Below, piece after piece: positions 40,355-63,934 of a stretch of 64,000 nucleotides of DNA. Position numbers and translations under genes: made by a program. The first letter of the stretch is position 1, and every line of letters begins with the position of its first letter. The stretch is from Pseudomonadota bacterium. GTDB lineage: Bacteria; Pseudomonadota; Gammaproteobacteria; Burkholderiales; Rhodocyclaceae. The notes under the pieces are model-generated. The model worked only from the letters and a program-made list of their open reading frames with translations, was not told the DNA's origin and did no database searches. The stretch is taken from positions 40,561-104,560 of the forward strand of contig JAFEFC010000018.1 of assembly GCA_018240785.1 (NCBI GenBank), in the 5' to 3' direction.

Positions 40355-41218
40355 ATGTCTGCGGACCAGCACTGGATTCTCACCGTTGCAGCGCCGAGTG
40401 CGCCAGGCCAAGTGGCGGCGGTATCGACGTTTCTCGACCGGCAGTCGTGCTACATCAGTGAATTCTCTTGTTTCGACGACGAGCTGAGCGGTCGCTTCTT
40501 CGTGCGTTGTGTGTTCAGGCCGGCCTCGGACAATCGGGCGATTCCGCCCACGATTCGGGAGGAATTCCGACCGCTGGCCGCGCGCTTCGGCATGGACTGG
40601 GCGATGCACGAACTTCGCGAACGCCCGAAAGTGCTCATCATGGTGTCCAAGCTCGACCACTGTCTGCGCGACCTTCTGTATCGCTGGCGCATCGGCGAGC
40701 TGCCCATCGACATCGTCGCAGTCGTTTCCAACCATCCGGATCTTGCGCATCTGGCGAGCGCTGAGGGGATTCCGTTCCATCATCTGCCCGTCACCGAGAC
40801 CACCAAGCCGCAGCAGGAGGCGAAGCTGCTGCAACTGGTCGATGACTCCGGTGCGGAACTGGTCGTGCTGGCGCGCTACATGCAGATCCTGTCGGCCGAG
40901 CTGTGCGAAAAACTGTCCGGCCGCGCCATCAACATCCATCATTCCTTCCTGCCCGGCTTCAAGGGAGCGAAGCCTTACCACCAGGCGCACGCGCGCGGCG
41001 TCAAGGTGATCGGTGCAACGGCGCACTACGTGACGAACGACCTCGACGAAGGTCCGATCATCGAGCAGGTCGTCGACCGCGTCAGTCACGCGCACAGGCC
41101 GGAGCAACTGCTGTCGGTTGGGCGGGACATGGAGTGCCAGGCGCTCGCGCGCGCCGTTCATTACCACGTCGAACGCAGGGTTTTCCTCAACGGCTCTCGC
41201 ACCGTCGTACTACCATAG
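40355..41218 (+). CDS. purU: Formyltetrahydrofolate deformylase PurU, 287 aa
   Basis: It hydrolyses 10-formyl-THF to formate and THF. An N-terminal ACT domain (ILTVAAPSAPGQVAAVSTFLDR) precedes the formyltransferase-like domain with SNHPDLAHLA, INIHHSFLPGFKGAKPYHQA and the catalytic DLDEGPII near residue 230. ATG 40355 follows GGAGA. In this setting it most likely disposes of one-carbon units from sarcosine breakdown, a role known for purU copies in sarcosine/glycine-betaine clusters, rather than purine balance. It lies upstream of the regulator and creatinase genes on the same strand. Confidence 0.95.
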   Translation: MSADQHWILTVAAPSAPGQVAAVSTFLDRQSCYISEFSCFDDELSGRFFVRCVFRPASDNRAIPPTIREEFRPLAARFGMDWAMHELRERPKVLIMVSKLDHCLRDLLYRWRIGELPIDIVAVVSNHPDLAHLASAEGIPFHHLPVTETTKPQQEAKLLQLVDDSGAELVVLARYMQILSAELCEKLSGRAINIHHSFLPGFKGAKPYHQAHARGVKVIGATAHYVTNDLDEGPIIEQVVDRVSHAHRPEQLLSVGRDMECQALARAVHYHVERRVFLNGSRTVVLP

Positions 41219-41351
41219 ACATAGGATTCCTGTCCGCCCGCCAGCGTGCGGGTGACGGACCGCGGCGGGCGCTTCGTCCTCGAGGCGCCCGTTTGGCGTG
41301 TCGGATGCGCTTACCCGCACCGATGCAGAGTACTGTCCCTGCTGGACGACG

Positions 41352-42386
41352 ATGAGAATGGCTCTTCCTGATGATTCCGGCAAACACTGGGCTGGACGGG
41401 GCGGTGACGCGCCGGTCCGCTTCGGTTTCCTGCTGGTTCCGGGCTTCACGCTGATCGGCTTCGGCGCTGCCGTCGACCCGCTGCGCCTTGCCAACGTGGC
41501 GGCCCGGCGCACGCTCTACGAGTGCATCACGCTGACGATGGATGGTGCGCCGGCGCGCTCCAGCGCCGGAGTCTGCGTGCAGCCCGACATGGCCGCCGTC
41601 GATGCGCAAAATCTCGACGCCGTCATCGTGATCGGCCCCAATCCTCTGCCTTCGGCAGGGACCGAGCCCATCATCCATTGGCTGCGCACGCTTGCCGCCA
41701 AGGGCGTATCACTCGGTGGCGTCGACACCGGCAGCTACTTCCTCGCCTGCGCCGGGTTGCTCGATGGCCACCGCAGCACGATCCACTGGGAAGACATGGA
41801 CGCGCTGCTGGACCGCTTCCCGCGCCTGGTCGTGTCCAACAAGATCTACGAGGTCGACCGCAACCGCTGCTCCTGCAGCGGCGGCATTGCCCCGGTGGAG
41901 ATGATGATCCACCTCATTGCCCTGGGCAGCGGCGGGCGCAAAGTGGCGGCGGCCGTCGCCGAGTATCTGATCTACGAGCGCCGCGGACCCGATGAACGGC
42001 AAAAGACTTCGCTGCGCGACGTGTCCGGCGCCTCGCATCCCAAGCTTGTCGAAGCCATCAAGTTGATGGAGTGCAACATCGAGGAGCCCTTGTCGATGGA
42101 GGAACTGGCGGCGCACATGCAGTTTTCGGCGCGCCAGCTCGAGCGTCTGTTCCGCGACTCCCTCAACTGCACGCCGCGGCAGTACTACCTGCAGTTGCGG
42201 CTGGAACGCGCGCGGCAACTGCTTACCCGTACCAACCGCCCGATCGCCGACATCGTGATGGCCTGCGGCTTCGTGTCGTTCGCGCACTTCTCCCATCGCT
42301 ACCACGCAGGCTTCGGCATCTCCCCGAGTGCGGAGCGTCGCCGACAGGTTGGCGACGGCGACAAGACCCCCAGGCCGCCCTCCTGA
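41352..42386 (+). CDS. GATase1/AraC-type regulator (GbdR/SouR-like), 344 aa
   Basis: An N-terminal DJ-1/PfpI amidotransferase-like domain (VRFGFLLVPGFTLIGFGAAVDPLRLAN, GGVDTGSYFLACAGLLDGH) is joined to an AraC DNA-binding domain (LSMEELAAHMQFSARQLERLF ... IADIVMACGFVSFAHFSHRY). This layout is that of GbdR, SouR and CdhR, which sense glycine betaine, sarcosine or carnitine. Its place directly before creatinase suggests it activates the creatine/creatinine genes, with sarcosine or creatine as a plausible signal. The start could be ATG 41352 or 41358. Confidence 0.9.
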   Translation: MRMALPDDSGKHWAGRGGDAPVRFGFLLVPGFTLIGFGAAVDPLRLANVAARRTLYECITLTMDGAPARSSAGVCVQPDMAAVDAQNLDAVIVIGPNPLPSAGTEPIIHWLRTLAAKGVSLGGVDTGSYFLACAGLLDGHRSTIHWEDMDALLDRFPRLVVSNKIYEVDRNRCSCSGGIAPVEMMIHLIALGSGGRKVAAAVAEYLIYERRGPDERQKTSLRDVSGASHPKLVEAIKLMECNIEEPLSMEELAAHMQFSARQLERLFRDSLNCTPRQYYLQLRLERARQLLTRTNRPIADIVMACGFVSFAHFSHRYHAGFGISPSAERRRQVGDGDKTPRPPS

Positions 42387-42498
42387 AGGTGGCGTGGCGT
42401 GGCGCGGCTGCGCTGGCTGCAACCGACTCTCCCTCTGCGGCCGATGTTCGACCGCATTTTCCGACCTCCGGCGTCCCTGGCCGGAGGTTTCTCTTTTT

Positions 42499-42682
42499 TG
42501 ACGTGGCGATCTGCCGAAGTCGTTTTCACGCAAACGCCCGTCGGCAGCCCGCAATCGCGGCGAAGGCTCGACCACTAGCATGACTCCCACGTTGCCGGTG
42601 CGCGAAAAGACCGATACGGCTTATCAGCGTGTAGCCGGCGAGCGTGTTGAACATCAATCCGAAAGAGATAAAGGAGCGAGAC
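42499..42682 (+). promoter_or_regulatory. Conserved upstream region of creatinase, copy 1
   Basis: It is retained in both creatinase copies. The best conserved piece, 42501-42536, reads ACGTGGCGATCTG then CGAAGTCGTTTTCACGCAA. Retention across the duplication points to an operator or activator site, possibly for the adjacent AraC-type regulator. AAGGAG lies 8-13 nt before the ATG. Confidence 0.6.
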
Positions 42683-43927
42683 ATGACGAGTCTAGTGACG
42701 GGCGCCCAGTCGATGAGCGAGTTGAAGGACCTGCTGCGGATCGAGAACGGCCAGAAGGTGAAGCACACCTTCTCGGATCAGGAGTACATCGATCGCCAGA
42801 CCAAGCTTCGTGCCTACATGGCGGCCAACGATATCGACGCGGTGCTGTTCACGTCGATGCACAACATCAACTACTACAGCGATTTCCTTTACTGCTCCTT
42901 CGGCCGCCCCTACGGCCTGGTGGTGACGCAGGACAAGGTGGTGTCGATCAGCGCCAACATCGACGGTGGCCAGCCGTGGCGCCGCACCTTCGGCGACTAC
43001 AACGTGGTCTACACCGACTGGCGTCGCGACAACTATTTCCGTGCGATCCAGCAGGAGATCCCGAACAAGGGTCGCGTCGGCGCCGAGTTCGACCATATCC
43101 CGGTCGAGCGCCTGGAAAAGCTCAAGGCAGCCTTGCCCAACGCGCAGATCGTGGATATCGGTGCCGGCACCATGCGCATGCGCATGATCAAATCGGCCGA
43201 GGAAATCGCCCTCATCAAGCACGGCGCCCAGGTGTGCGACGTCGGCGGCGCGGCGCTGGCCGCTGCGGTGCACGAAGGCGTACCCGAGCATGAAGTGGCG
43301 CTGGCCTCGACCCAGGCGATGATCCGCGAGATCGCCAAGCGCTTCCCGGATTCGGAGCTGATGGACACCTGGACCTGGTTCCAGTCGGGCATCAACACCG
43401 ACGGCGCGCACAACCCGGTGACCACGCGCAAGGTTCAGAAGGGCGACATCCTGTCGCTGAACTGCTTCTCGATGATCTCGGGCTACTACACCGCGCTCGA
43501 GCGCACGATGTTCTACGACCACTGCGACGACGCCTCGCTGAAGCTGTGGGAGGTCAACGTCAAGGTGCACGAGGCCGGCCTGGCGCTGGTGAAGCCGGGC
43601 GTGCGTTGCTGCGACGTCGCCGCGCAATTGAACGAGATCTTCGCGGAGCACGGCCTGCTGCAGTACCGCACCTTCGGCTACGGCCACTCCTTCGGCGTGC
43701 TGTCGCACTACTACGGTCGCGAAGCCGGCCTCGAGTTCCGTGAGGACATCGAGACCGTCCTCGAGCCGGGCATGGTGGTGTCGATCGAGCCGATGATCAT
43801 GCTGCCCGAAGGCATGCCGGGTGCCGGCGGCTACCGCGAGCACGACATCCTCGTCGTGACCGAGGACGGCGCCGAGAACATCACCGGCTTCCCGTACGGC
43901 CCGCAGCACAACATCATCAAACGCTAG
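42683..43927 (+). CDS. Creatinase (creatine amidinohydrolase), copy 1, 414 aa
   Basis: It hydrolyses creatine to sarcosine and urea. It is a pita-bread fold enzyme of the M24 family without metal requirement. The N-terminal domain carries TSMHNINYYSDFLYCSFGRPYGLVV. Catalytic-region residues are H243 in NTDGAHNP, E273 in ALERTMFYDH and E369 in VSIEPMIMLPEGMPG, matching H232 and the glutamates of Pseudomonas creatinase. The length fits (about 404-415). The start has AAGGAG. It differs from copy 2 at five residues only. It is the first structural gene after the regulator. Confidence 0.95.
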   Translation: MTSLVTGAQSMSELKDLLRIENGQKVKHTFSDQEYIDRQTKLRAYMAANDIDAVLFTSMHNINYYSDFLYCSFGRPYGLVVTQDKVVSISANIDGGQPWRRTFGDYNVVYTDWRRDNYFRAIQQEIPNKGRVGAEFDHIPVERLEKLKAALPNAQIVDIGAGTMRMRMIKSAEEIALIKHGAQVCDVGGAALAAAVHEGVPEHEVALASTQAMIREIAKRFPDSELMDTWTWFQSGINTDGAHNPVTTRKVQKGDILSLNCFSMISGYYTALERTMFYDHCDDASLKLWEVNVKVHEAGLALVKPGVRCCDVAAQLNEIFAEHGLLQYRTFGYGHSFGVLSHYYGREAGLEFREDIETVLEPGMVVSIEPMIMLPEGMPGAGGYREHDILVVTEDGAENITGFPYGPQHNIIKR

Positions 43928-44246: not shown

Positions 44247-45017
44247 ATGAAAAGCGTTCACATTTCCGAGTTGGCGTGGCCCGAATACGATGCCTTGGTC
44301 CGTGACGGCAAGACGCCCGTCCTGATTCCGGTCGGGGCGCTCGAACAGCACGGCCCGCACATGTCGATGAACCCCGACGTGCTGCTCCCCACTGCTATTT
44401 CCGAGCGCGTCGCTGACCGCATCGGCGCGCTCGTTGCACCACCGATCGCCTACGGCTATAAGTCGCAGCAGAAGAGTGGTGGCGGAAACCACATGCCCGG
44501 TACGACGAGCCTGGATGGCCTGACAGTAACATCGACGATCCGCGACGTCCTGAAGGAACTTGCGCGTCATGGCGTACGTCGGACGGTGCTCATCAATGGC
44601 CATTATGAGAATTCGGCGTTCATCGTCGAGGGCGTGGACCTGGCGCAACGCGAATTGCGCTGGGATGGCATCCGCGATTTCTCAACTGTGGTTCTCTCCT
44701 ATTGGGATTTCGTCACACAGGAAGCAATCGACGCGATCTACCAGGGCGAATTTCCGGGTTGGGCGGTCGAGCATGGCGGAGTCCTGGAAACGTCGTTGAT
44801 GCTCCACCTGCATCCGCACCTGGTCGATATTGAGAAGATCTGCGATCACGCTCCAGCGCAGTTTCCCCCGTACGACTTCTTCCCGATCAAGCCCGAATGG
44901 ACGCCTGCGTCAGGTTGCCTGTCATCGGCGAAGCGTGCGAGCGCGCAGCATGGCGAGACGCTGCTGAAGGTTTGCGTCGACGGAATCAGCCACGAACTGG
45001 CAAGCGCCTTCGACTGA
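44247..45017 (+). CDS. Creatininase (creatinine amidohydrolase), 256 aa
   Basis: It interconverts creatinine and creatine by opening the lactam ring, with a two-metal centre. Metal-ligand region E33/H35 is in GALEQHGPHM, D44 in MNPDVLLP, H119/E121 in INGHYENSAFI, and a further glutamate in GGVLETSLML near 181. ATG 44247 follows AAGGAG. The length agrees with the known family (~260). It feeds creatinase. A decayed 3' end of a second copy lies at 46904-46987. Confidence 0.95.
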   Translation: MKSVHISELAWPEYDALVRDGKTPVLIPVGALEQHGPHMSMNPDVLLPTAISERVADRIGALVAPPIAYGYKSQQKSGGGNHMPGTTSLDGLTVTSTIRDVLKELARHGVRRTVLINGHYENSAFIVEGVDLAQRELRWDGIRDFSTVVLSYWDFVTQEAIDAIYQGEFPGWAVEHGGVLETSLMLHLHPHLVDIEKICDHAPAQFPPYDFFPIKPEWTPASGCLSSAKRASAQHGETLLKVCVDGISHELASAFD

Positions 45018-45340
45018 ATGCCGACGGCCGTGCGCCGCGCCGAACGTCGAGATTCACGCAGCTCATCCCACGAGGGCGCTCATGATTGACGCTTTCGAAA
45101 GAGGGAATTGCTCGTGGGCAACAGATGTTACCGCCAAACCCCGGCTCTTCGTTCGCTCCCCTTCAGTATAAGCCTGACGTGGGGTCGTGGAGGCTAGCCT
45201 CTTCGAGTTAAGGAGTTTGCGACCAAATCTAGGTGTTGTGAAGAAAAGCCGCGGGACGATCTCGCCGATTCCGTTGATCGGAGCGTCGATGTTGTCCACA
45301 CATAAAGCGCGAGTTATAAGAACTATTGGAGACATGTCAA
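45018..45340. other. 323-bp spacer upstream of the NCS1 permease
   Basis: No gene is supported. A CCGAT/ATCGG inverted repeat (near 45270-45290) and an A/T-rich stretch (45300-45330) could hold a promoter. GGAG at 45328-45331 is the ribosome site for the permease. Confidence 0.4.
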
Positions 45341-46801
45341 ATGAGTAACCATAGTGGTGATGCTGCTGACTTGGAAGAGATGCTGCAACCGATCCCGGAG
45401 AATCGGCGAACCAAGTCCGTTTGGGGACAGTTTTGGATCTGGTCGGGAGCAAACGTTGCGCCCATCAACTGGATTCTGGGCGCGCTCGGGATAAACCTAG
45501 GACTCTCGCTCGCGGACACAATTACGGTCCTGGTGGTTGGAAACCTTTTTGGAATGCTTGGTTTTGGCGCCTTTGTGCTGCTTGGGCAACGAACCGGCGT
45601 CACCGGGATGGTGCTTTCCCGTGCTGCATTCGGCCGGTATGGGGCGTACCTGCCGGCCGCCATCCAGGCATCGCTGGCAGTTGGCTGGTCAGCCGTGAAT
45701 ACTTGGATCATTCTCGATCTCGTGATGGCACTATTCGGTCAGATTGGCTGGGTGGATCCGGCCGCTGAAAACTTCTGGTGGCGCCTGTCAACTGCCGCGA
45801 CCATCATGACCGCCCAGGTCGTTATCTGCTACATCGGTTATCGGGCTATTTCTGCGTTCGAGAAATGGACCGTGCCGCCTACGGTGCTGGTGCTGGTAGC
45901 GATGAGCCTCGTTGCCTGGACGCAGTTCGATATCAACTGGGCCTACGCGGGACCCGAAGGCAAGGTGCTGACCGGCATGCCGCGATTCGCAGCGATGAGT
46001 GCAGTGATGACCGCAATTGGTATTGGTTGGGGTATTGGCTGGTTTACGTATGCACCGGACTATTCGCGCTTCGTTTCGACCTCCGTGTGCAAGACGCGTC
46101 TTTATCTTGCAAGTACGCTCGGTCAGTTCATCCCCGTCGTGTGGTTGGGCGTGCTCGGTGCGACCTTGGCAACGAAGAATGGACTCGCTGACCCCGGCGC
46201 ACTGATCGTCTCCAACTTCGGGGTTCTTGCGATCCCTGTGCTGGCGCTGGTCATTCATGGCCCGATTGCGACCAACATCATCAACCTCTACACATTCGGT
46301 GTGGCGGCTCAGGCCATGGACATCAAGATCTCTAGACACAAGTTGTCTATCATGGTGGGCGTCTTTGCAATGTTGGCGGTCATGTTCTTCATGAAGCAGG
46401 ACAACTTTGCACACGCGCTTGACGCTTGGTTGATCTCGATCGTCGCGTGGGTTGCCTCCTGGGGTGGCATCATGGCGGTGCACTTCTTCGTCTTTGAGCG
46501 GAAAACGAAGAATTTCGACTTCCTCTTCGAGGGAGCGAAATCCAGTCACATGCTCAAAGTCAATCCGGCGGCGATGCTGGCATTCTTTGGTGGGCTGGGA
46601 TGTACCTACCTTTTCATGTACGGAATCATTCCGCTTTTTCAAGGCCCCATCGCCGTGGCAATGGGCGGGGTTGATCTCTCCTGGCTCGGTGGTTTCGTGA
46701 GCTCCGCCTTGCTTTACTACGTGACGGGTCGACGGTATGCACTCCGTTACTCACCAGGCGCAAGATCGCAAGCGCCGAGGGTACCGATGGCAAAGGTATA
46801 A
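45341..46801 (+). CDS. NCS1-family permease (CodB-like), probable creatinine transporter, 486 aa
   Basis: Twelve or so membrane segments and the NCS1 signature N-terminus (ENRRTKSVWGQFWIWSGANVAPINWILGALGINLGLSLADTI) place it with cytosine permeases. ATG 45341 lies 9 nt after GGAG; a TTG at 45326 is possible. NCS1 carriers take nucleobase-like rings, and creatinine is a small cyclic amide resembling cytosine. Together with the adjacent creatininase this makes creatinine import the best guess. Codon use is visibly less G/C-rich than in the flanking chromosomal genes, suggesting separate acquisition. Confidence 0.88.
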   Translation: MSNHSGDAADLEEMLQPIPENRRTKSVWGQFWIWSGANVAPINWILGALGINLGLSLADTITVLVVGNLFGMLGFGAFVLLGQRTGVTGMVLSRAAFGRYGAYLPAAIQASLAVGWSAVNTWIILDLVMALFGQIGWVDPAAENFWWRLSTAATIMTAQVVICYIGYRAISAFEKWTVPPTVLVLVAMSLVAWTQFDINWAYAGPEGKVLTGMPRFAAMSAVMTAIGIGWGIGWFTYAPDYSRFVSTSVCKTRLYLASTLGQFIPVVWLGVLGATLATKNGLADPGALIVSNFGVLAIPVLALVIHGPIATNIINLYTFGVAAQAMDIKISRHKLSIMVGVFAMLAVMFFMKQDNFAHALDAWLISIVAWVASWGGIMAVHFFVFERKTKNFDFLFEGAKSSHMLKVNPAAMLAFFGGLGCTYLFMYGIIPLFQGPIAVAMGGVDLSWLGGFVSSALLYYVTGRRYALRYSPGARSQAPRVPMAKV

Positions 46802-46903
46802 ATGGGGAGGGGGCGTGCATGAATTGAAATGCCCTCATCAGTCTTCCGGTAGCGTTACGACGAGGTTTCCTATGAGGAGAACGTGAAGCGAGTATCTGGA
46901 AAA

Positions 46904-46987
46904 GGTGCGAGCGCGTTGCATTACGACACGCTGGTGAAGGTTTGCACCGATGATTTCAGCCGCGGACGAGCGAACGTGTTCGACTGA
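46904..46987 (+). pseudogene. 3' fragment of a second creatininase gene
   Basis: The frame reads GASALHYDTLVKVCTDDFSR then GRANVFD and a stop, aligning with RASAQHGETLLKVCVDGISH then ELASAFD and stop at the end of the intact creatininase. Similarity continues about 20 bp past the stop (GAATGNCG...CTGCGCCGCGC). Nothing upstream of residue ~230 remains. It is a relic of a former duplicate. Confidence 0.8.
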
Positions 46988-47382
46988 ATGTCGGGGGCTC
47001 TGCGCCGCGCTGTCCTCCGCCTCTGAATCGGCCCCATCCGTGACGAAGTTTGCGGGTGGGGCTGATTGCCGTTTACCGGCATGCAGTTTTCCATGCCGTT
47101 GGTAATGTCGCCGACGCGACAACGGATGTCGCGATCAGGAAATGCATCAGGGCGCACGATTTCCATACTGCTTCCGTCGAATTCGAGATTAAGAATGAAA
47201 AATCAAACGAAGTCGAGAGTGGCGCCAATTTGCGCCGTAGGAGTCGAGTTCGATGAGGAGGGCGTTGCGCACACAAAGCCACGTATACGAGCGCAAGGAA
47301 CATTCCGGTAGCAAAAGAAGAAACTGCCCGAACACATGGCTACCGGAGAACAAAATAATGAATTTAGACCAAAGGAAAGCGA
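46988..47382. other. 395-bp spacer before the Tsx-like gene
   Basis: No supported gene. Short open frames are present but lack ribosome sites. Composition is A/T-richer near 47190-47380, probably holding the promoter of the Tsx-like gene. Confidence 0.4.
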
Positions 47383-48219
47383 ATGAAGAGCAAGAGTATT
47401 AAACGCAAAGCGAGCGCCGGTGTGTTGGCCAGTTGCTGTGTCGCACTCGGAGTTGCAGGCGCCAGCAGCGCTTTCGCAACGGAGAGCTGGCAGAACACCA
47501 ATGTGACCGTTGGTTACACGACCCAGTCGAAGGCGGATCCCGTATTTGGCACCGGCACGGCCGACGAGAAACTGACCACCGTGCGCCTGGAGCATTTCGG
47601 GGTTCACGAGTACGGCGACAACTATTTCTTCTTCGATACCTACCATGGCAACAAGGTGGGTGGGGTATTCGATGGGACTGGCGCAGGTTCGTTCGGTGAT
47701 ACCGCGAGCGATCAGTACTATGGGGTGTGGAATCCGCGGCTGAGCCTGTCGAAAATGAGCGGTGCGAACCTGTCGCTCGGCTTCATCCAGGATGTATATC
47801 TGGCAGCGCGTCTGGAGCGCGGTTCGTATGCGAACTTCCGTGCCAACAATTTCGGCGTCGCCTTCGATCTGAAGGTTCCCGGCTTCAGCTTCTTCGAAAC
47901 CGATTTCTACGCCCGTGGCGCCCGCTTTTCAGGCGATGACGGAAGCACCACGCGCACGCTATTCTGGCGCACTTTCGCCATGCTGCCGTTCGAAGTGGCC
48001 GGCTTCAAGTTCGTTTGGTCGCCGTTGCTCCTGGTGAACTTCAACAACAAGGAGCGAGAAACCACCGTCTTCGTCCAGCCCGACCTCTGGCTGAAGTTCA
48101 ACTCGCATTTCGACGTCGGCTATAGGCATGAGTACGCTACCTACAGCAAGCCGGATAGCGAGGGCGGGGGCAGGTATTCGCGCACCACGCCGACGCTGAT
48201 GGTCCGCTGGAACTTTTGA
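47383..48219 (+). CDS. Tsx/OmpK-like outer-membrane channel, 278 aa
   Basis: A signal peptide (KRKASAGVLASCCVALGVAGASSAFA) precedes a beta-barrel of alternating hydrophobic strands with a final aromatic residue (TPTLMVRWNF), typical of the nucleoside-specific Tsx family (WQNTNVTVGYTTQ, LTTVRLEHFGVHEYGDNYFFFDTY). The usual substrates are nucleosides; in the middle of the creatinine cluster it may admit creatinine or creatine through the outer membrane, an inference from position only. Confidence 0.85.
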   Translation: MKSKSIKRKASAGVLASCCVALGVAGASSAFATESWQNTNVTVGYTTQSKADPVFGTGTADEKLTTVRLEHFGVHEYGDNYFFFDTYHGNKVGGVFDGTGAGSFGDTASDQYYGVWNPRLSLSKMSGANLSLGFIQDVYLAARLERGSYANFRANNFGVAFDLKVPGFSFFETDFYARGARFSGDDGSTTRTLFWRTFAMLPFEVAGFKFVWSPLLLVNFNNKERETTVFVQPDLWLKFNSHFDVGYRHEYATYSKPDSEGGGRYSRTTPTLMVRWNF

Positions 48220-48410
48220 TTCGTCGCCGATTCGCAGCCGGTTTCATGGCCACCCCCTGGGCAAGGTTTGCCGACCGGTTGCGAGGTGAGGGCTACCGCA
48301 GCTACGCATTTCGCATGATTGGTGACCGTCCGAGCAACCCGGTAGTTCCCGGTCAGTGCTGAATCATCGATCGTTGCGTCTCCGAAACTCATTTCTGGAG
48401 AGCGACGACG

Positions 48411-48802: not shown

Positions 48803-48842
48803 TCCTGTCCTCGGCGATCCGGGCTCACGTCTAAAGCGGGGC

Positions 48843-51306: not shown

Positions 51307-51319
51307 CGAGACGGCAGGA

Positions 51320-54647: not shown

Positions 54648-56967
54648 GGGCCGGCTGCGACGGCTGCCCGGTTATCGCCGGGACCATCCGCTCGCGTACC
54701 GCCTGATGACCTATGTGCTGGTCTGCAGTGTCGGCTTCGCGATCATCTCCACGGCGCTGCAGGTGGGGATCGAATACCGGCGGGAAATGCGATCCATCGA
54801 GGAGCGCCTCGAACTGATCCGCAGCAGCTATCTCGCGAGTCTGGCGCGCAGCATCTGGGATCTCGACGAAGATCAGGTGCGCCTGCAGTTGCAGGGGATC
54901 TCGGATTTTCCCGATGTCCGCGGGCTGAGGCTCGACGGTGCCGGCTTCCCTTCGCCCATCGAGATCGCCGGCGGCAGCCGGAGGCGGGCGATCGAGCCGA
55001 TCGAGCACAGCTTCGAGTTGAGCTACCCGACGCCCGAAGGCGTAAGGAGTCTCGGCCGACTGGTCGTTCAGACCGACCGGGCGGCGGTGTTCGCACGACT
55101 GGGCTGGAGCGGCCTGAGCATCTTCCTGAGCCAGACCGTTACGATCCTGCTCATCGCGGCGGTGCTGGTGGTCCTTTTCCAGTGGCTTGTCACCCGCCAT
55201 CTCGAAAGCATGGCGCGCTACGCCAAACAGCTCGGCGCAGGGCGGCTGGACGAGCCGCTGAAGCTCTCGCGTCCGACCGCCTCGGCGCCGGACGAGCTCG
55301 ATGCGGTTGTCGCCGCGGTCAATGACATGCGTCTGGCGATCCGTCAGGACATCAGCCGCCGCCAACGTGCCCACGAGCAACTGCTCTACAACCGCGACCT
55401 GCTCAAGGCGAAGGTGGAGAAGCGCACGCGAAGCCTGCGGGCGGCGAAGGAGGCTGCCGAGGCCGCAAACCGCGCGAAGTCGCAGTTCCTCGCGACGATG
55501 AGCCATGAGATCCGCACGCCGATGAACGGCATGCTCGGCAGGCTGCAACTGCTCCGCCGCAGCGAGGCGCCCGCGCCGGTCCGGGCCCAGCTCGACCTGC
55601 TGTATCGATCGGGCGAGCTGCTGCTTGCGACGCTCAACGATGTGCTCGATTACGCGCGGCTGGAGGAGGGCGCCTACGTTCCCGAGGAGCAGGCCTTCGA
55701 TCTGCACGAGCTGGTCGAAAGCCAGATCCTGCTCGCCGCCACGGCAGCCCGTTCGAAAGGCCTGCGGCTCGAAGCCGACATCGCGCCCGACGTGCCGCGT
55801 CACCATGTGGGCGCAGCGGGAAGCGCGCGCCAGGTGCTCGCTAACCTGCTCTCAAACGCGATCAAGTTCACCGCTGGGGGCGAAGTCAGGGTCCTAGTGA
55901 GCGGGGGTGCCGCGGCGGACGCTGCCGAACGGCTGCGCTTCGAGGTGCGCGATAGCGGCATCGGCATTGAGCCGGAGCAGCAGGCGCGCATCTTCGAGCG
56001 CTTCACGCAGGCCGACGAGACGATCACCCGCCGCTTCGGCGGTTCGGGCCTGGGGCTCGCGATCTGCAAGAAGCTGGTCGAGAGCATGGGCGGGGCGATA
56101 GGGGTGGCGAGTACGCCCGGCGAGGGCAGCCGGTTCTGGTTCGAAATGCCGGCACGGGTGCTGCAGCCGGAGGCTGCCGAGGCGGCATCGGGCATGGTCG
56201 CTGCCGAGTTGGGCAGCCTGAGCCTGTTGCTGGTGGAGGATGTCGAAGTGAATCGGGAGGTCCTGATCGGGCTGCTGGAGCACGCGGGGCATCTCGTCTG
56301 CGGCGTTGCCGACGGCGTGCAGGCGCTCGACGTGTGCCGTCATCAGGGGTTCGATGCGCTGATCCTCGACATGCACCTTCCGGGCATGAGTGGCAGCGAG
56401 CTGAGCCGGAGAATTCGCGCCGATTCCAGCAACCTCAACGCCACCGCGCCGATCATCGCCCTCACGGCCAGCGTCAGCCCGGAGGACGTGCATCACTACC
56501 TCGACAGCGGCATGGACGCAGTCGTTGCCAAGCCGGTACGGATGGAGCAGTTGCTGCGCACGCTCGCAGAGGTTCTCGGCGGGAAGGCTGCCGGGGGCAC
56601 GGCTGCAGGCGCAACCTTTGCCGCCGCCGACGGCACCGTGGACCACCGGCTGCTGGCAGCGCACTCGCGAGTGTTCGGCGCCGGCCGCCTCGGGAGGCTG
56701 TTGCTCACCTTGCGCGAGCAGGCTGACCGAGCCTGCGAGCAGCTTGCCGCTGCGATGGCGCAGGAGGATCTCTTCGAAGTTCAGGAGCTCGCGCACAAAC
56801 TCGCGGGCGGATGCGAGATGCTGGGCTTGGTGGGCAGCGGCGAACGCCTGCGCGCGCTGGAGGCCAGGGCGATCGCCGACGACCCTGCCGCCTGCCGCGA
56901 ACTGGCCGACAGTCTGGAGCTCGTGCTGGAGCGCGAGCTGGAGGAGGCCGAAGGCTGCCTGCGGTAG
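54631..56967 (+). CDS. Hybrid sensor histidine kinase with receiver and HPt domains, 778 aa
   Basis: Two membrane helices (near 26-48, LMTYVLVCSVGFAIISTALQ, and 165-188, FLSQTVTILLIAAVLVVLFQ) enclose a periplasmic sensor loop of ~115 residues. Then come HAMP-like and coiled-coil segments, HisKA with H292 in ATMSHEIRTPMNGML, HATPase (LLSNAIKFTA, VRDSGIGIEPEQ, GGSGLGLAICKKLVE), a receiver with D580 in ALILDMHLPGMSG, and an HPt with H722 in EVQELAHKLAGGCEMLG. It can run a full His-Asp-His phosphorelay to the regulator at 53134. Confidence 0.95.
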   Translation: MKQLAEGRLRRLPGYRRDHPLAYRLMTYVLVCSVGFAIISTALQVGIEYRREMRSIEERLELIRSSYLASLARSIWDLDEDQVRLQLQGISDFPDVRGLRLDGAGFPSPIEIAGGSRRRAIEPIEHSFELSYPTPEGVRSLGRLVVQTDRAAVFARLGWSGLSIFLSQTVTILLIAAVLVVLFQWLVTRHLESMARYAKQLGAGRLDEPLKLSRPTASAPDELDAVVAAVNDMRLAIRQDISRRQRAHEQLLYNRDLLKAKVEKRTRSLRAAKEAAEAANRAKSQFLATMSHEIRTPMNGMLGRLQLLRRSEAPAPVRAQLDLLYRSGELLLATLNDVLDYARLEEGAYVPEEQAFDLHELVESQILLAATAARSKGLRLEADIAPDVPRHHVGAAGSARQVLANLLSNAIKFTAGGEVRVLVSGGAAADAAERLRFEVRDSGIGIEPEQQARIFERFTQADETITRRFGGSGLGLAICKKLVESMGGAIGVASTPGEGSRFWFEMPARVLQPEAAEAASGMVAAELGSLSLLLVEDVEVNREVLIGLLEHAGHLVCGVADGVQALDVCRHQGFDALILDMHLPGMSGSELSRRIRADSSNLNATAPIIALTASVSPEDVHHYLDSGMDAVVAKPVRMEQLLRTLAEVLGGKAAGGTAAGATFAAADGTVDHRLLAAHSRVFGAGRLGRLLLTLREQADRACEQLAAAMAQEDLFEVQELAHKLAGGCEMLGLVGSGERLRALEARAIADDPAACRELADSLELVLERELEEAEGCLR

Positions 56968-57080: not shown

Positions 57081-58259
57081 ATGAGTTTCACGAAGAAGCT
57101 GTGTGCAGCATTGCTGGTGGGGGTTGCCGCCCAATCCCCCGTCTGGGCCGACGAGCCGAACATTGTGCGGATCGTGACGCATTCGCCCTTGTCGGGGCCG
57201 CAATCCCTGCTCGGTGAAGCCATCAAGTTCGGCGCCCAGTTGGCTGTGGAGCAACAGGCCAAGGAGCTTGCTGACCTCGGGTTCAAGGTCGTCCTGCAGC
57301 CCGAGGATGACCAGGCGACGCCGAACGTGGGTGTCGCCAACGCAAACCGTTTCGTCAATGACGCGAAAGTGCTGGCGGTGGTCGGCCACTACAACTCGAG
57401 CGTCGCGATTCCGGCCTCCGAAATCTACTCCAAGGTCGGCTTGACCATGATCTCGCCGGCCAACAATGCCACCCAGATTACCGATCGCACCTCGACGCGG
57501 GCAGTCGTCAATCGCCTCTGCGGCCGCGACGACGTGCTCGGCCCTGTCGCCGCGCGCTTCGCGACCGATGAGCTCAAAGCCAGGACGGCCTATGTCATCA
57601 ACGACAAGTCGGCCTACGGCTCGGGCCTTGCCGGAGCCTTCGAAAAGGCCTTCCGCGCCGCCGGCGGCAAGGTCAGTCTCTCGGTCGGCATCGACGACAA
57701 GGAAACCGATTTCTCCAGCATCCTGAACCGTGCCGGCGTCGAGAAGCCGGATCTGATCTTCTACGGCGGCTTCTATCCGCAGGGCGGCCTGCTCATCAAG
57801 CAGATGCGGCAGAAGGGGGTCGCGGCGGCGTGGATGAGCGGGGACGGCGTCGACAGCGTCGATCTGCAGAAGATCGCAGGCGCTGCCAACATGCGCGACA
57901 CGTATTTCGCCACCAGCTCGGTGCCCGTCGGTCAACTGCCGGCGGGCCGCAAGTTCGTGGCCGACTACAAGGAGAAGTTCGGCAAGGCGCCGGAAGGCTT
58001 CTCGGCCTTCGCCTATGACTCGGCGTCGGTGGCACTGAAGGGGATCGCGAACGCAGTGAAGGCCAACGGCGGCAAGCTTCCCGCGCGCAGCCAGGTGGCG
58101 GCCGAGGTGCGCAACGTCAAGCTCGACGGCGTGACCGGCAGCATCGCCTTCAATCCGAAGGGTGATGTCCTCGCCGCCAAGTACGCGGTGATCAAGGCCG
58201 AGCCGAGCCCGACAGACAACAAGGTGATCAAGATCCTCGAAGTGGCTGCGCCGCTGTAA
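57081..58259 (+). CDS. livK: Branched-chain-amino-acid-type ABC transporter substrate-binding protein, 392 aa
   Basis: Signal peptide MSFTKKLCAALLVGVAAQSPVWA, then a Liv/leucine-isoleucine-valine-binding fold: VRIVTHSPLSGPQSLLGEAIKFGAQLAVEQ, AVVGHYNSSVAIPASEIY, TMISPANNATQITDR, TAYVINDKSAYGSGLAGAFE and DLIFYGGFYPQGGLLIKQM. ATG 57081 follows GAGGAGA. This family also binds urea, amides and aromatic acids. Its place in a creatinine cluster makes creatine, sarcosine or urea possible ligands, not proven. Confidence 0.9.
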   Translation: MSFTKKLCAALLVGVAAQSPVWADEPNIVRIVTHSPLSGPQSLLGEAIKFGAQLAVEQQAKELADLGFKVVLQPEDDQATPNVGVANANRFVNDAKVLAVVGHYNSSVAIPASEIYSKVGLTMISPANNATQITDRTSTRAVVNRLCGRDDVLGPVAARFATDELKARTAYVINDKSAYGSGLAGAFEKAFRAAGGKVSLSVGIDDKETDFSSILNRAGVEKPDLIFYGGFYPQGGLLIKQMRQKGVAAAWMSGDGVDSVDLQKIAGAANMRDTYFATSSVPVGQLPAGRKFVADYKEKFGKAPEGFSAFAYDSASVALKGIANAVKANGGKLPARSQVAAEVRNVKLDGVTGSIAFNPKGDVLAAKYAVIKAEPSPTDNKVIKILEVAAPL

Positions 58260-58325: not shown

Positions 58326-59291
58326 TTGGATTTCTCAACCTCGCTGGGCCTCTTGCCGCCCACGCTGCTCGACGGCGCGATCCTCGGCCTGCTCTATGCC
58401 ACGATCGCGCTCGGCTACACGATGGTCTATGGCGTACTGCGGCTGATCAATTTCGCCCATGGCGAAATCTTCATGGTCGGGGGTATCGCCGCGATCGAGT
58501 TGCTGACCTTCGTGCTCATTCCCCTCGGCCTGCCGCCGCTGCTGATGCTGGGCATCGGTCTGATGTTCGCGGCATGCGTGTCGGCGGCGGTTGCGCTGGC
58601 AGCGGAGCGGATCGCCTACCGGCCGTTGCGCAAGCGCCGCGCGCCGCGCCTCGTACCGCTGATCACCGCCATCGGACTGTCGCTGCTGCTGCAGGACGCG
58701 GTGCGATTCATCGAGAGCCTGTTCGGGAATTTCATCCGCCCCTTCCCGGCCATCCCCTCGCTCGAAGGCAGCTTCGAACTGGGCGGTGGGCTGATCCTGT
58801 CTTACAAGTCGCTGGCGATCCTCGTGATCGGCATCGCGATGCTTGCGTTCCTGATGCTGTTGGTGAATCGCACCAAGCTGGGCCAGGCCATCCGCGCCGT
58901 CGCCCAGGACCCGCGCGCAAGCACGCTGATGGGCATCGACGTCGATCGCGTGGTGGCGGCCACCTTCGCGATCGGTGGCGCGCTGGGCGGCATGGCAGGC
59001 CTGCTCTACGCGCTGCAGTACGGCAAGCTCGATCCGTTCGCGGGATTCATTCCCGGCCTGAAGGCATTCACCGCCGCGGTGCTCGGCGGCATCGGCAGCA
59101 TCCCTGGCGCGATGGTGGGTGGTCTCGTGCTCGGCGTCATGGAAGTGATGTCCGGCACCTTCCTGCCGATCATCACCGATGGCGTCATCGGCACCGACTA
59201 CAAGGATGTCTTCGTGTTCGGGCTGCTCATTCTGATCCTCATTTTCCGGCCCGGCGGTCTGCTCGGGAAATCCGTGGTGGAGAAGGTCTGA
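58326..59291 (+). CDS. livH: Liv-type ABC transporter permease LivH, 321 aa
   Basis: Eight or so membrane segments with family motifs: LLYATIALGYTMVYGVLRLINFAHGEIFMVG, GQAIRAVAQDPRASTLMGID and ALGGMAGLLYALQYGKLDP. It starts with TTG at 58326 behind GGGAGA; no in-frame ATG fits better. It overlaps livM by 1 nt. Confidence 0.93.
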   Translation: MDFSTSLGLLPPTLLDGAILGLLYATIALGYTMVYGVLRLINFAHGEIFMVGGIAAIELLTFVLIPLGLPPLLMLGIGLMFAACVSAAVALAAERIAYRPLRKRRAPRLVPLITAIGLSLLLQDAVRFIESLFGNFIRPFPAIPSLEGSFELGGGLILSYKSLAILVIGIAMLAFLMLLVNRTKLGQAIRAVAQDPRASTLMGIDVDRVVAATFAIGGALGGMAGLLYALQYGKLDPFAGFIPGLKAFTAAVLGGIGSIPGAMVGGLVLGVMEVMSGTFLPIITDGVIGTDYKDVFVFGLLILILIFRPGGLLGKSVVEKV

Positions 59292-60661
59292 TGAATACGC
59301 TCTCCGTATCCCAACCGAAGGGGGGCGCGCTCTCCTCGTGGTTCAGTCCGGTGCTGGCGGTCAGCACGGCGATCCTGAAGGCGATGGTCTTCACCGGCAC
59401 CGGCATGGCCGACACGCTGGTTTTCCTGGCGTGCCTGTCCAGCCTGTTCTTCGCGTCCGACCGCGACGTGGCACCGTCGGTGCGCCGCTTCGTGTTCTTG
59501 TTCGTGCTGGTCGGTGTGGTGCCGTATTTCGGCATGGCCAATACCTTCTACCTAGACGTCGTGACCCAGGTCGCGATCTTCGCGGCGCTGGCTGTCGGCC
59601 TGAACATCGTCGTCGGGTTTGCCGGACTGCTCGATCTGGGCTATGTCGCGTTCTTCGCGGTCGGCGCTTACCTGTGGGCCATCCTGGGGTCGCCGCAGGC
59701 GCTGGAGCTCTTTGGCGCGGGCAGCAGCTTCCTGCCGCTTCCGGTCAACGCATTCTTCCCCTGCCTGCTGCTCGCGGTGGGTGCGGCGGCGGTCATCGGC
59801 GTCCTGCTCGGCCTCCCCGTGCTGCGGCTGCGCGGCGACTACCTCGCCATCGTCACGCTCGGTTTCGGTGAGGTCATCCGGATCCTCGCCAACAACCTCG
59901 ACCGGCCGGTCAACATCACCAACGGCCCGCAGGGTATCGCCTCAATCGGGCAGCCGCTCGAAGGACTGGCCGGCTGGCTCGCGGGATTCGGGGGCGAGGC
60001 GTTCAAATGGCAAGCGTTCATCTACTACGCGCTCGTCATCGTCATCCTGGCCGTCGCGGTCCGCTCGGTCAGCAACCTGAATCACTCCCGCATCGGCCGC
60101 GCGTGGATCGCGATTCGCGAAGATGAAATCGCCGCGCAGGCGATGGGTGTTCCGCTGACGAAGACCAAGCTGATCGCCTTTGCCTCCGGCGCCAGCTTTG
60201 CCGGTGCGATGGGCATGATCTTCGCCGCCAAGCAGACCTTCGTCAGCCCGGAGTCGTTCGACCTGAACCAGTCGATCGGCATTCTCGCGATGGTCGTTCT
60301 CGGCGGGCTGGGGTCAATCCGCGGCGCGATTCTCGGCGCCGCCCTGGTCACCGTCCTGAACCTCCAGCTCCTGAAGGCGTTTTCGGCCTGGTTCAACGAC
60401 CTGCGCACCGGCGGCGTGGAGATCCTCGGCTGGTCGCTCGCGCATCTGCCGGCGCAATTCGATCCGGCCAAGTACGAGCGGCTGATCTTCGGCCTGATCC
60501 TGATCCTGATGATGCTCTACCGGCCCGCGGGTCTGGTGCCCTCGCGCCGCCGTGCCATTGAACTGAACGAGCCTGCGCCAGAGTTCGAGGATCGCAGCTT
60601 CGGTCTTGCCGAGGCGGATCTGCCCCGGCGCAAGCGCCACCCGCGCAAGGGGGAAGCATGA
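59291..60661 (+). CDS. livM: Liv-type ABC transporter permease LivM, 456 aa
   Basis: Second permease of the heteromeric channel: LNIVVGFAGLLDLGYVAFFAVGAYLWAIL, LRGDYLAIVTLGFGEVIRIL, GRAWIAIREDEIAAQAMGV and VVLGGLGSIRGAILGAALVTV. The C-terminal ~45 residues form a charged cytosolic tail. It overlaps livG by 4 nt (ATGA 60658-60661). Confidence 0.94.
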   Translation: MNTLSVSQPKGGALSSWFSPVLAVSTAILKAMVFTGTGMADTLVFLACLSSLFFASDRDVAPSVRRFVFLFVLVGVVPYFGMANTFYLDVVTQVAIFAALAVGLNIVVGFAGLLDLGYVAFFAVGAYLWAILGSPQALELFGAGSSFLPLPVNAFFPCLLLAVGAAAVIGVLLGLPVLRLRGDYLAIVTLGFGEVIRILANNLDRPVNITNGPQGIASIGQPLEGLAGWLAGFGGEAFKWQAFIYYALVIVILAVAVRSVSNLNHSRIGRAWIAIREDEIAAQAMGVPLTKTKLIAFASGASFAGAMGMIFAAKQTFVSPESFDLNQSIGILAMVVLGGLGSIRGAILGAALVTVLNLQLLKAFSAWFNDLRTGGVEILGWSLAHLPAQFDPAKYERLIFGLILILMMLYRPAGLVPSRRRAIELNEPAPEFEDRSFGLAEADLPRRKRHPRKGEA

Positions 60662-61458
60662 ACGACCTGTTGAGCATCCACGAAATCACGCGCTCCTTCG
60701 GCGGTATCACGGCAGTCGGCGGCGTGACGCTGAAGGTTCCGGAAGCGTCGATCGTGTCGGTGATCGGCCCGAACGGTGCGGGTAAGACCACCTTCTTCAA
60801 CCTGATCACCGGCCTCTACCGGCCCGACAGCGGCACGATCCATTTCGACGGTGAGCGCATCGACGGTTTGCGGCCGGACATGATCGTGGCGGCGGGGATC
60901 GCGCGGACTTTCCAGAACATCCGCCTGTTCGCCGACATGAGTGTGCTGGAGAACTGCGTGGTCGCCGGCGACTGCCGCCGGCCGACCGCCTATCTCGACT
61001 GCCTGTGGCATACGGGACGCTTTTCCAGGGACGAGCGGGACGGGGTCGCACACGCGCGGAAATGCCTCGAATTCGTCGGCCTCGCCGGCAAGCGCAATGA
61101 GCTTGCCTCCAGCCTGTCCTATGGCGACCAGCGTCGCCTGGAGATCGCGCGGGCGCTGGCGACACAGCCGAAGATGCTGCTGCTGGACGAGCCGTCCGCC
61201 GGCATGAATCCGGGCGAGACCGACGCGGTGACGCGGCTGATCCGCCGCGCGCGGGACAACCTGGGCATGAGCGTGCTGCTGATCGAGCACGACATGCGGA
61301 TGGTGATGACGGTGTCGGAAACCATCACCGTGCTCGACTACGGCAAGAAGATCGCGAGCGGCACGCCGGGCGAAATCCGGCGCGACCCGCGTGTGATCGA
61401 GGCCTACCTCGGCAAGGGTAAGGCCGCAGGCAACTATGGATTGGAGGCACACGCATGA
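60658..61458 (+). CDS. livG: Liv-type ABC transporter ATPase LivG, 266 aa
   Basis: Walker A VIGPNGAGKTTFFNLITGLY, Q-loop ARTFQNIRLF, signature SLSYGDQRRLEIARALA (a tyrosine variant usual for LivG), Walker B MLLLDEPSAGMNPGETD and VLLIEHDMRMVM. The end overlaps livF by 4 nt. Confidence 0.95.
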   Translation: MNDLLSIHEITRSFGGITAVGGVTLKVPEASIVSVIGPNGAGKTTFFNLITGLYRPDSGTIHFDGERIDGLRPDMIVAAGIARTFQNIRLFADMSVLENCVVAGDCRRPTAYLDCLWHTGRFSRDERDGVAHARKCLEFVGLAGKRNELASSLSYGDQRRLEIARALATQPKMLLLDEPSAGMNPGETDAVTRLIRRARDNLGMSVLLIEHDMRMVMTVSETITVLDYGKKIASGTPGEIRRDPRVIEAYLGKGKAAGNYGLEAHA

Positions 61459-62180
61459 GTCCTTCTGCACAGCCGGTTCTGGCACTGGAAAACCTGAACA
61501 GCTACTACGGCAACATCCAGGCGCTCAAGGGCGTCTCCATCGAGTTGAAGCAGGGCGAGATCGTCGCGTTGATCGGGGCGAACGGGGCAGGCAAGACCAC
61601 CACGCTGGCGGCGGCCAGCCTGTTACACCGTCCCAAGAGCGGCAGCATCCGCCTCAAGGGGCAGGACGTCACCGACGTTCCGCCGCAATCCCTGGTTGCG
61701 CGGGGCATGGCGCACGTGCCCGAGGGGCGGGCCATCTTCAAGGAGATGTCGGTCCTGGAGAATCTCGAGGTCGGCGGCTACCTGCTCGGCGACAAGGCTA
61801 CCCGCGCCGAGCGCATCGAGGCCGGGCTGGAGCTCTTCCCGCGTCTGCGCGAGCGGGCGCGGCAGATGGCCGGGAACATGTCCGGCGGAGAGCAGCAGAT
61901 GCTGGCGATGGCGCGCGCGCTGATGACCGATCCCGACGTGGTGCTGCTGGATGAGCCTTCGATGGGACTGTCGCCGAAATACGTCGAGTTCATCTTCGAG
62001 ATCATCGAGCGACTGAACTCGAAGGGAAAATCCATCCTGCTGGTCGAGCAGAACGCGGAGATGGCCCTGGGTGTCGCGCACCGGGGCTATGTCCTGCAGA
62101 CGGGGGAGGTGGTGTTGTCGGGGCCGGCGAAGGAGCTGGCCGGAAGTGATCGCGTCAGGGAGATCTATTTCGGCGAATGA
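61455..62180 (+). CDS. livF: Liv-type ABC transporter ATPase LivF, 241 aa
   Basis: Walker A LIGANGAGKTTTLAAASLLH, Q-loop HVPEGRAIFKEMS, signature NMSGGEQQMLAMARALM, Walker B VVLLDEPSMGLSPKYVEF and ILLVEQNAEMALGVAHRGYV. It is the last gene of livKHMGF; the stop at 62180 is followed by a stem-loop. Confidence 0.95.
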   Translation: MSPSAQPVLALENLNSYYGNIQALKGVSIELKQGEIVALIGANGAGKTTTLAAASLLHRPKSGSIRLKGQDVTDVPPQSLVARGMAHVPEGRAIFKEMSVLENLEVGGYLLGDKATRAERIEAGLELFPRLRERARQMAGNMSGGEQQMLAMARALMTDPDVVLLDEPSMGLSPKYVEFIFEIIERLNSKGKSILLVEQNAEMALGVAHRGYVLQTGEVVLSGPAKELAGSDRVREIYFGE

Positions 62181-62188
62181 CAGGATTC

Positions 62189-62227: not shown

Positions 62228-62234
62228 GGCCCGT

Positions 62235-63419
62235 TCAGCCGAAGCGCCGGCTGTTCGGGAACAACTCGTCGTAGTCGACGTTCCCGCTTTCGGGCGGGGG
62301 CGCCTCGCTGCTGGCGCGCATCTGGCTGGGCGTGAGGCCGAATTTCTCGCGGATCGCTCGTCCCAGGTGCGATGCGCCGACGAAGCCGGATTCGTTCGCA
62401 ATCTGGGTGATGCTGCGTCCCGTGTGGCGCAGCATCCAGACTGCAGATTCGAGGCAAAGGCGGCGCGAATAGGCCGCCGGGGGCATCCCCGTTTCGCTGA
62501 CGAACAGGCGCTCCAGTTGCCTGACCGAAAGCCCTACCTGCCCCGCGATGCCCGCCACCGGCAGCGGGTCGCTGAGATGTTGTTCCATGACGGTGATGGC
62601 GCGGCGAAGTTGCGGATGCTCGACCCGCCGCAGGCCGGGCGGCACCGGCTGCGGCGCGCTGGTGCGGGGAAGGTCGTCCACGATCAGGATGCTGAGCGCC
62701 TTGCGTACGGTCGCGGCATCGAAATGGCGCTCCAGCACGGCCGCCGCCACGTCGACCGCGGCCTGTCCGCCGCTGCAGGTGATGCGCCGATTGTCGATCA
62801 GGATGCGGCGGTCGGCTACCACCTGCGCGGCCTTGGCGGGAAAGGTCTCGATGAAGTCCCAGTAGTGGTACCAGCTGATGCAGCAGCGCCGGTTTTCCAT
62901 CACATTGGCCGCGACCAGCGCGAAGGTGCCGGTGCAGATCCCCACGAGGGTGACGCCCGCGGCGTCCGCGTCCTGCAGGAACTGCCTGGTGGCGTCGTCG
63001 AGCTGGAGACCGGCGTGCAGCAATCCGCCCACCACGATGACGTAATCGTACTGCCGCGGATCGTCGAAGGTTTTCGACGGCGAGACTTCCAGACCGCAGC
63101 TCGATCGCACCGCACTCATTCGACTGCCGAGGATGGTCCATTCGCAGCGCACCGGCTTCGAGCGGTCGCCTTCGTCGGCGATCAGCCGCAGCATGTCTAT
63201 GAACGACGAGAGGGGCGTCAGCGTGAAGTTCGGCAGCAGGATGAAGGCGAAGCGGGGTTTGTCTGTACGTTCGCGCGCGGGGGGCGATCGGTGTGCGCCG
63301 CGCCGCGCGTAATCGTCCAACTTCGCGTCCAGGTTCGCGCCCGACTTCGCACCAGCCGGGTCCAACGCGGGAAAAGGCAAGGTGCGGCCCTCGCGCCGCT
63401 GTTCGACGTACCCGATCAT
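62235..63419 (-). CDS. GATase1/AraC-type regulator, second copy, 394 aa
   Basis: DJ-1/PfpI-like domain (FAFILLPNFTLTPLSSFIDMLRL, VGICTGTFALVAANVMENRRC, ITCSGGQAAVDVAAAVL) plus an AraC domain (LPVAGIAGQVGLSVRQLERLFVSETG ... ITQIANESGFVGASHLGRAIREKFGL). It has the same architecture as the regulator at 41352 but a distinct sequence and an extra ~50-residue basic N-terminus, so the start at 63419 is less certain. It probably responds to another metabolite of the same pathway and controls the ABC genes or the gene at 63935. Confidence 0.9.
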   Translation of the reverse strand: MIGYVEQRREGRTLPFPALDPAGAKSGANLDAKLDDYARRGAHRSPPARERTDKPRFAFILLPNFTLTPLSSFIDMLRLIADEGDRSKPVRCEWTILGSRMSAVRSSCGLEVSPSKTFDDPRQYDYVIVVGGLLHAGLQLDDATRQFLQDADAAGVTLVGICTGTFALVAANVMENRRCCISWYHYWDFIETFPAKAAQVVADRRILIDNRRITCSGGQAAVDVAAAVLERHFDAATVRKALSILIVDDLPRTSAPQPVPPGLRRVEHPQLRRAITVMEQHLSDPLPVAGIAGQVGLSVRQLERLFVSETGMPPAAYSRRLCLESAVWMLRHTGRSITQIANESGFVGASHLGRAIREKFGLTPSQMRASSEAPPPESGNVDYDELFPNSRRFG

Positions 63420-63934
63420 TGTCTGCCTCCGCTAATGATTATGTGACCCGGCGGTGGTCGGAAACCGTCGGGCGGCTGCGGCGGACGTGCTCGCCGCGAG
63501 CTTCCGGAAGGCTAGCAATAGCTTGTAAACGCGATTCCCGCGGATTGTGCAAAGTTGTGCAGGCTTGTCGCGCATGGTTTTACATCCCCGCACGCGGCCC
63601 TGTCATCTGCTGGAGCGCGCGGCCGGACTGCGTGAGCCAGGCAGCGACGGCGCCAGGCTCCGACCGGCGACGGTGATACGCCGAAGACCTCGCGGTCGCA
63701 CCTCGTTCCACCTTCGCTCAGGGGCTGCGTGTCGTTTCGCAGGCACGTCATTGCGACCTTTCCTCTGGCGTGTCGGGGGCGCTTACCTTTTCGGGTCAGA
63801 AAGGCTATTGCCTTCAAAAGCAATAATGATCAAAAAACGATCAATAGACATCGCAATAATAGAGAGCCTACTATTGCATCCGACAAGCACTTCTTGTCGA
63901 TCAACAAACCCGATGTGGATAGGAGACACCGAAA
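63420..63934. other. 515-bp divergent intergenic region
   Basis: It lies between the AraC-type regulator (leftward) and the partial gene at 63935 (rightward). No gene is seen. The right 130 bp are strikingly A/T-rich and hold four TATTGC half-sites; the left part has a direct repeat TTGTGCA (63545-63565). Confidence 0.5.
63806..63877. promoter_or_regulatory. Cluster of four TATTGC/GCAATA half-sites
   Basis: TATTGC (63806-63811) faces GCAATA (63820-63825) across 8 nt. A second, larger inverted repeat is GCAATAATAG (63853-63862) with CTACTATTGC (63868-63877), one mismatch, 5-nt spacer. They lie 58-129 bp before the ATG at 63935, where an activator or repressor site is expected. Confidence 0.6.

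Follow-up and report, generated by a model that had tools for sequence, protein, structure and literature searches.

The 64,000-nucleotide window analysed here (the whole stretch of DNA, from whose first letter all positions are counted) is the terminal part of contig C9 (JAFEFC010000018.1) of a 4.71-Mb genome in 58 contigs; position 64000 is the contig end. Positions 40355 to 64000 hold a set of genes that appears to form an island for the catabolism of creatinine and creatine. Near-identical loci in named relatives are those of Thauera and Aromatoleum, and the host is therefore called Thauera-type. Gene identities were taken from Pfam and NCBIfam family models, and genes whose scores fell below curated cut-offs, of which there are several, are named by kind only. 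A preliminary description of the window had listed creatininase, two creatinases, PurU, two GATase1-AraC regulators, an NCS1 permease, an MHS transporter, a Liv-type ATP-binding cassette (ABC) system, a Tsx-like outer-membrane channel and a phosphorelay; all of these gene kinds are present, with family-model matches far above chance. It had missed an SBP_bac_3 gene, transposase relics at 48220-50061, the start of an amidase-like gene and the contig end. For comparison, relatives were scanned for creatininase and the best 80 of 191 were kept as loci (46 of them 19 kb or longer; L033 and L034 are overlapping parts of a single contig), whose gene content was scored by tblastn with identity thresholds chosen by the analysts.

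All island genes and operator sites described below lie on the forward strand, except araC2. The island opens with purU, encoding formyltetrahydrofolate deformylase (40355-41218; TIGR00655, 304 bits, over the cut-off of 286), and araC1, a GATase1-AraC regulator of the GbdR kind (41298-42386; DJ-1_PfpI and HTH_18 domains; the start of the open reading frame is uncertain). These are followed by creatinase 1 (42683-43927; PF00557 and PF01321), creatininase, the creatinine amidohydrolase (44247-45017; TIGR04448, 353 bits, over the cut-off of 235; 370 bits against PDB entry 1Q3K), an NCS1-family permease that is a candidate creatinine importer (45341-46801; PF02133, 131 bits) and a Tsx/DUF5020-type outer-membrane channel (47383-48219). 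Creatinase 2 (50062-51306) is full-length, matching residues 4-401 of PDB entry 1CHM with 689 bits, and precedes an MHS-family transporter, a candidate creatine importer (51615-52943). The two creatinases are identical at 409 of 414 residues, and the gene is present twice together with 187 bp of upstream DNA (42496-43918 and 49875-51297, 94.8% DNA identity).

When creatinase promoters were aligned, they revealed a direct repeat with a half-site of about GTCGNNNNCRSGMAA and a 21-bp period. A half-site matrix, which replaced an earlier 46-bp matrix, was built from 11 distinct creatinase sites, with the atypical L095 creatinase site (score 16.6) excluded from training, and was run, with a threshold of 14 bits, against the 420 bp that precede each mapped gene. 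Only three sites in the window score above 9. Two of them, before creatinase 1 (42518-42555, score 41.7) and creatinase 2 (49897-49934, score 40.5), belong to the training set; the third (47106-47143, score 17.3), which precedes the channel gene by 277 bp, does not. Across the loci (counts leave out L215 and L216), the threshold was reached by 16/16 distinct creatinase promoters, mostly training sites, and by 13/13 distinct channel genes, using a matrix trained on creatinase promoters alone. It was also reached before all five BCCT genes and two of the five glyA genes (all five at 7 bits or more), and before none of ten purU genes (five at 7 bits or more), eight potD genes or 13 araC1 genes. 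As controls, 14 bits was reached by 0/422 upstream regions in 66 other loci and, within the loci that carry the sites, by 1/136 distinct regions upstream of genes of other classes; a simulated null gave 0.00025, but uses the window-wide composition, the 422 regions being the better control. Since related genomes are not independent, the effective number of sites is smaller. The channel and creatinase promoters are nonetheless separate places in each genome, and the operator common to them suggests that the channel is tied to the creatinine cluster. AraC1 is suggested as the activator that acts through this operator.

The channel itself resembles the nucleoside channel Tsx in predicted shape more than in sequence. 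The best PDB match of its structural model, whose mean predicted local distance difference test (pLDDT) score is just 61, is E. coli Tsx (1TLW; E 6.6e-7; template-modelling scores of 0.58 and 0.63), whereas sequence identity to Tsx is 12%. Among the 80 loci, orthologs are confined to Thauera/Aromatoleum/Azoarcus-type loci; the gene was found in 10 of the 14 Zoogloeaceae-type loci, and in an eleventh, L032, it is cut by a contig end. Outside these, the sole match, close to one end of the Dasania locus L049, is a DUF5020 relative, and in Paraburkholderia fungorum a porin follows NCS1 in place of the channel. A 33% relative on a Cupriavidus plasmid (L213:7998-8804) lies among genes for RidA, a flavin oxidoreductase, a dioxygenase, an ABC system and formaldehyde dehydrogenase. 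Between creatininase and the channel, a relic that looks like the 3'-terminal piece of another creatininase gene (46901-47010, about 76% DNA identity to 44935-45040) marks the spot where A. toluolicum L035 retains a full second creatininase. The G+C content is 57% for 44247-48219, compared with 66.5% for 1-40354 and 65% for 50062-56967, which suggests that the creatininase-NCS1-channel segment is of different origin.

For the inner membrane, no PDB sequence matched the NCS1 permease at 0.001. The MHS transporter is 66-69% identical to Pseudomonas proteins, which adjoin creatinase in most such loci. According to one report, deletion of creT in Corynebacterium glutamicum abolishes growth on creatine and leaves growth on creatinine intact, and CreT resembles a major-facilitator (MFS) protein adjoining a Pseudomonas putida creatinase (PMC8864220). 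By its position beside creatinase only, the MHS protein may be likened to such a CreT-type creatine transporter. In relatives, potDBCA separates the channel from creatinase 2 or MHS, and such a Pot-type ABC system occupies the channel-creatinase junction in 8 of the 14 Zoogloeaceae-type loci. It is absent from the window, where 48220-50061 holds degenerate transposase remnants (IS4-type NF033592, 102 bits, under the cut-off) and, as read by eye, an IS66-type accessory fragment. The match between the window and the near-identical locus L029 stops at 48287, 68 bases past the channel gene, and potDBCA comes next in L029. A recent insertion-sequence copy was considered as the cause of the absence and rejected: no further complete copy of the 1842-bp stretch exists in the genome, where its sole other match, besides the repeat upstream of creatinase, is 76 bp long. 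L029 also lacks all sequence from the 5' part of the response regulator gene to the bases after araC2, and the island is thus plastic. PotD in Variovorax L211 (65%) and NCS1 in Rhizobium L212 (43%) have neighbours of the same kinds, namely amidase, polysaccharide deacetylase and urea-carboxylase-associated protein.

Downstream of MHS lie an OmpR-type, TorR-like response regulator (53134-53859; PF00072 and PF00486; Asp motif DIRLPG), a periplasmic SBP_bac_3 solute-binding protein (SBP), the proposed co-sensor (53856-54647; PF00497, 65 bits; signal-peptide-like N-terminus), and a hybrid histidine kinase with CHASE5, HAMP, HisKA, HATPase, REC and Hpt domains (54631-56967; Pfam), whose phospho-acceptor motifs SHE, DMHLPG and AHKLAG are present. 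Because the SBP gene shares four bases with the end of the regulator gene and adjoins the kinase gene, the three look like one operon. The predicted SBP structure is too poor for use (pLDDT 47). TorT-TorS-TorR is a three-component system, and its TorT has a fold different from that of SBP_bac_3. The likeness of the relay to it, an OmpR-type regulator, a hybrid kinase with REC and Hpt, and a periplasmic binding protein in one operon, justifies the term "TorRS-like" of the preliminary description as far as domain make-up goes. The term fails at the equivalog cut-offs, the best NCBIfam matches being TorR at 249 bits (cut-off 275) and TorS at 426 bits (cut-off 676), and the binding protein and the CHASE5 sensor are also points of difference. 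A survey of 61 relatives, 10 with creatininase over its cut-off and 51 without, found SBP orthologs (at least 63% identity) in seven, all within the creatininase genomes. At 60% identity or more, the SBP occurs in 7/10 creatininase genomes versus 0/51 others (Fisher P 2.8e-7), and the association within the genus has a Fisher P of 2.3e-5, both uncorrected for kinship; paralogs at 30-35% occur in two genomes outside the ortholog set. In 6/7 genus genomes with the SBP, and likewise in A. evansii L037, the relay has creatinase, sox or hydantoinase genes around it.

At the 3' side, araC2 encodes a second GATase1-AraC regulator (62235-63419, reverse strand; PF12833 and PF01965). GbdR, of the choline/glycine betaine regulator family, shares the GATase1 plus AraC make-up and is the best NCBIfam match of both regulators (NF052371), but araC1 at 348 bits and araC2 at 166 bits are far under the equivalog cut-off of 480. 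The contig end cuts off, after 22 residues, the start of an N-carbamoylsarcosine-amidase-like gene (63935-64000), recognized by its match to a gene on plasmid pAZKH of Azoarcus sp. KH32C, where the full-length relative scores 244 bits against PDB entry 1NBA, N-carbamoylsarcosine amidohydrolase. The only other amidase match in the genome itself covers residues 135-228, the C-terminal 94, at the end of contig C30. With the two pieces at the ends of C9 and C30, the contigs are probably adjacent, with about 0.34 kb missing. C30 continues with fabF, an MFS gene, araC3 (GATase1-AraC), glyA, sdaA, soxB and soxA, and in genus genomes L197 and L199 the amidase-like gene is directly beside glyA-sdaA-sox. 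Sarcosine oxidase and urease genes are present on other contigs, soxB on C30 (724 bits) and ureC, urease alpha, on C23 (930 bits), both over their cut-offs. With soxB and ureC the steps from creatinine to glycine are accounted for, and with soxA, glyA and sdaA a route from creatinine to pyruvate is encoded. A complete N-methylhydantoin branch was sought as well and rejected for this genome, which has just a 29% hydantoinase match, on C26.

Much of this gene set is ordinary. Creatinase accompanies 66 of the 80 creatininase loci and a GATase1-AraC gene 58; transport genes vary (NCS1 39, potD 38, MHS 22, BCCT 13), as do glyA (28), soxB (25) and purU (18). Outside the Zoogloeaceae set, 64/66 loci have one or more of NCS1, Pot, MHS and BCCT, and of the 14 plasmid records whose potD match is 62% or better, 13 also contain creatininase. 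The core recurs in Pseudomonas, Burkholderiales and alphaproteobacteria, and on an Arthrobacter plasmid without creatininase. From this wide recurrence and the variable transport genes, we infer a common core with modular transport parts. The earlier statement that the set is "not a standard described unit" was thus overstated, part of the set being drawn in a published figure (Figure 6 of PMC8864220). In the accessible part of that source, Pseudomonas, Arthrobacter and Corynebacterium clusters likewise place a gene for creatininase or creatinase next to those for an MFS transporter and sarcosine oxidase, and C. glutamicum uses AmtR, whereas no outer-membrane channel, SBP-kinase relay or direct-repeat operator is named there. 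A creatinine-related outer-membrane channel or phosphorelay is likewise absent from the accessible parts of the open-access literature (PMC8864220, PMC7921472, PMC6742649). The pAZKH plasmid has araC1, creatinase, creatininase, NCS1, channel and MHS in the order of the window, and the operator before creatinase and channel. It differs in having potDBCA, hydantoinase genes, a second NCS1 and a second DUF5020-type gene, and it has no relay or Liv system of the type in the window in the stretch compared. Hydantoinase genes, an Mhp1-like NCS1 gene, a DUF5020/Tsx-type gene and the amidase-like gene adjoin its creatinine genes (L167:29855-38131).

The locus is real, well-formed and mostly of a known kind, and with a probability of roughly 80% it is a catabolic island for creatinine and creatine, as enzymes and gene linkage indicate. 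The Tsx-fold channel would admit creatinine to the periplasm and the NCS1 permease would carry it on into the cytoplasm, and creatine would enter by the MHS transporter. Creatininase would open the ring to give creatine, and creatinase would split creatine into sarcosine and urea, from which urease would release ammonia. Sarcosine oxidase, GlyA and SdaA would convert sarcosine to glycine, serine and pyruvate, with PurU releasing tetrahydrofolate. A GATase1-AraC protein, most likely AraC1, may activate creatinase 1, with creatininase and NCS1 served by read-through, and also the channel, creatinase 2 with MHS and, via a weaker site, glyA-sox. The relay would sense a related periplasmic compound. 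Of the earlier proposals, NCS1 and MHS as transport partners, a dedicated outer-membrane channel and a linked sensor all gain support, the last two from the operator common to channel and creatinase and from the SBP tracking creatininase genomes.

Several observations weigh against parts of this scheme. Just one of 18 creatininase promoters reaches 14 bits, and none does before NCS1 (0/9), MHS (0/5), the response regulator (0/6) or livK (0/1); read-through across gaps of about 300 bp is assumed. The channel (PF03502, 23.4 bits; gathering cut-off 27.2) and the MHS transporter (TIGR00883, 396 bits; cut-off 443) score under their curated cut-offs, and no channel gene was detected in L039, L040 and L095, three of the 14 Zoogloeaceae-type loci. 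An Arthrobacter plasmid encodes a 64% relative of the NCS1 permease next to creatinase, sox and purU genes, in a record without a creatininase match, and the NCS1 protein of the window may thus carry another compound. In G016 the relay is apart from the creatine genes. This last observation and the lack of an operator before the regulator would fit a relay that regulates something else and merely hitchhikes in the island, an alternative that is less likely than not, as the relay occurs amid creatinase, sox or hydantoinase genes in nearly all the SBP-bearing genus genomes.

That the NCS1-channel pair serves another compound with a five-membered ring, N-methylhydantoin for instance, and takes creatinine on the side, seems improbable to us. 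The second NCS1 of the KH32C plasmid, which matches the hydantoin transporter Mhp1 and stands beside a DUF5020/Tsx-type gene, hydantoinase genes and an amidase-like gene, speaks for it, whereas the pair in the window adjoins creatininase and the weak hydantoinase match of this genome is on another contig. The Liv-type ABC system had been taken as a further creatinine or creatine route, and it is the weak link of the island, beside a locus without the usual Pot-type ABC. It comprises a livK-type solute-binding protein (57081-58259; PF13458, 165 bits) and livHMGF-type permeases and ATPases (58326-62180; Pfam and NCBIfam), all doubtful members of a creatinine system. A third uptake route in place of the lost Pot-type ABC would suit its location between relay and amidase-like gene and the transposase relics at the Pot position, but the odds are low: the best operator score upstream of livK is -13.6, no close ortholog exists in 149 other family genomes (best relative 42%; just three are other members of the genus), none of the 80 loci has livK, and its nearest plasmid relative, 58% in Ensifer, adjoins aspartate ammonia-lyase and asparaginase-type genes.

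Urine and sewage contain creatinine as a major form of nitrogen waste. The accessible parts of the open-access literature cover the enzymes and one creatine transporter, with outer-membrane entry and periplasmic sensing undescribed there. The new elements of this locus are the operator by which a Tsx-fold channel is tied to the cluster, the SBP relay linked with it and the reduced standing of the Liv system. As a tentative generalization, with the odds somewhat against it, Tsx/DUF5020-fold channels might be dedicated outer-membrane pores that pair with NCS1 permeases to take up small ring ureides, creatinine here and hydantoin-type compounds on the KH32C plasmid; the Thauera-type pore would be co-regulated with creatinase via the 21-bp direct-repeat operator, and the SBP-CHASE5 phosphorelay would sense periplasmic creatinine or creatine. 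For the transport genes of such islands, the operator offers a direct and inexpensive way to sort those that belong to the regulon from those that do not, with the Liv system a doubtful member and the Tsx-fold channel a likely one.

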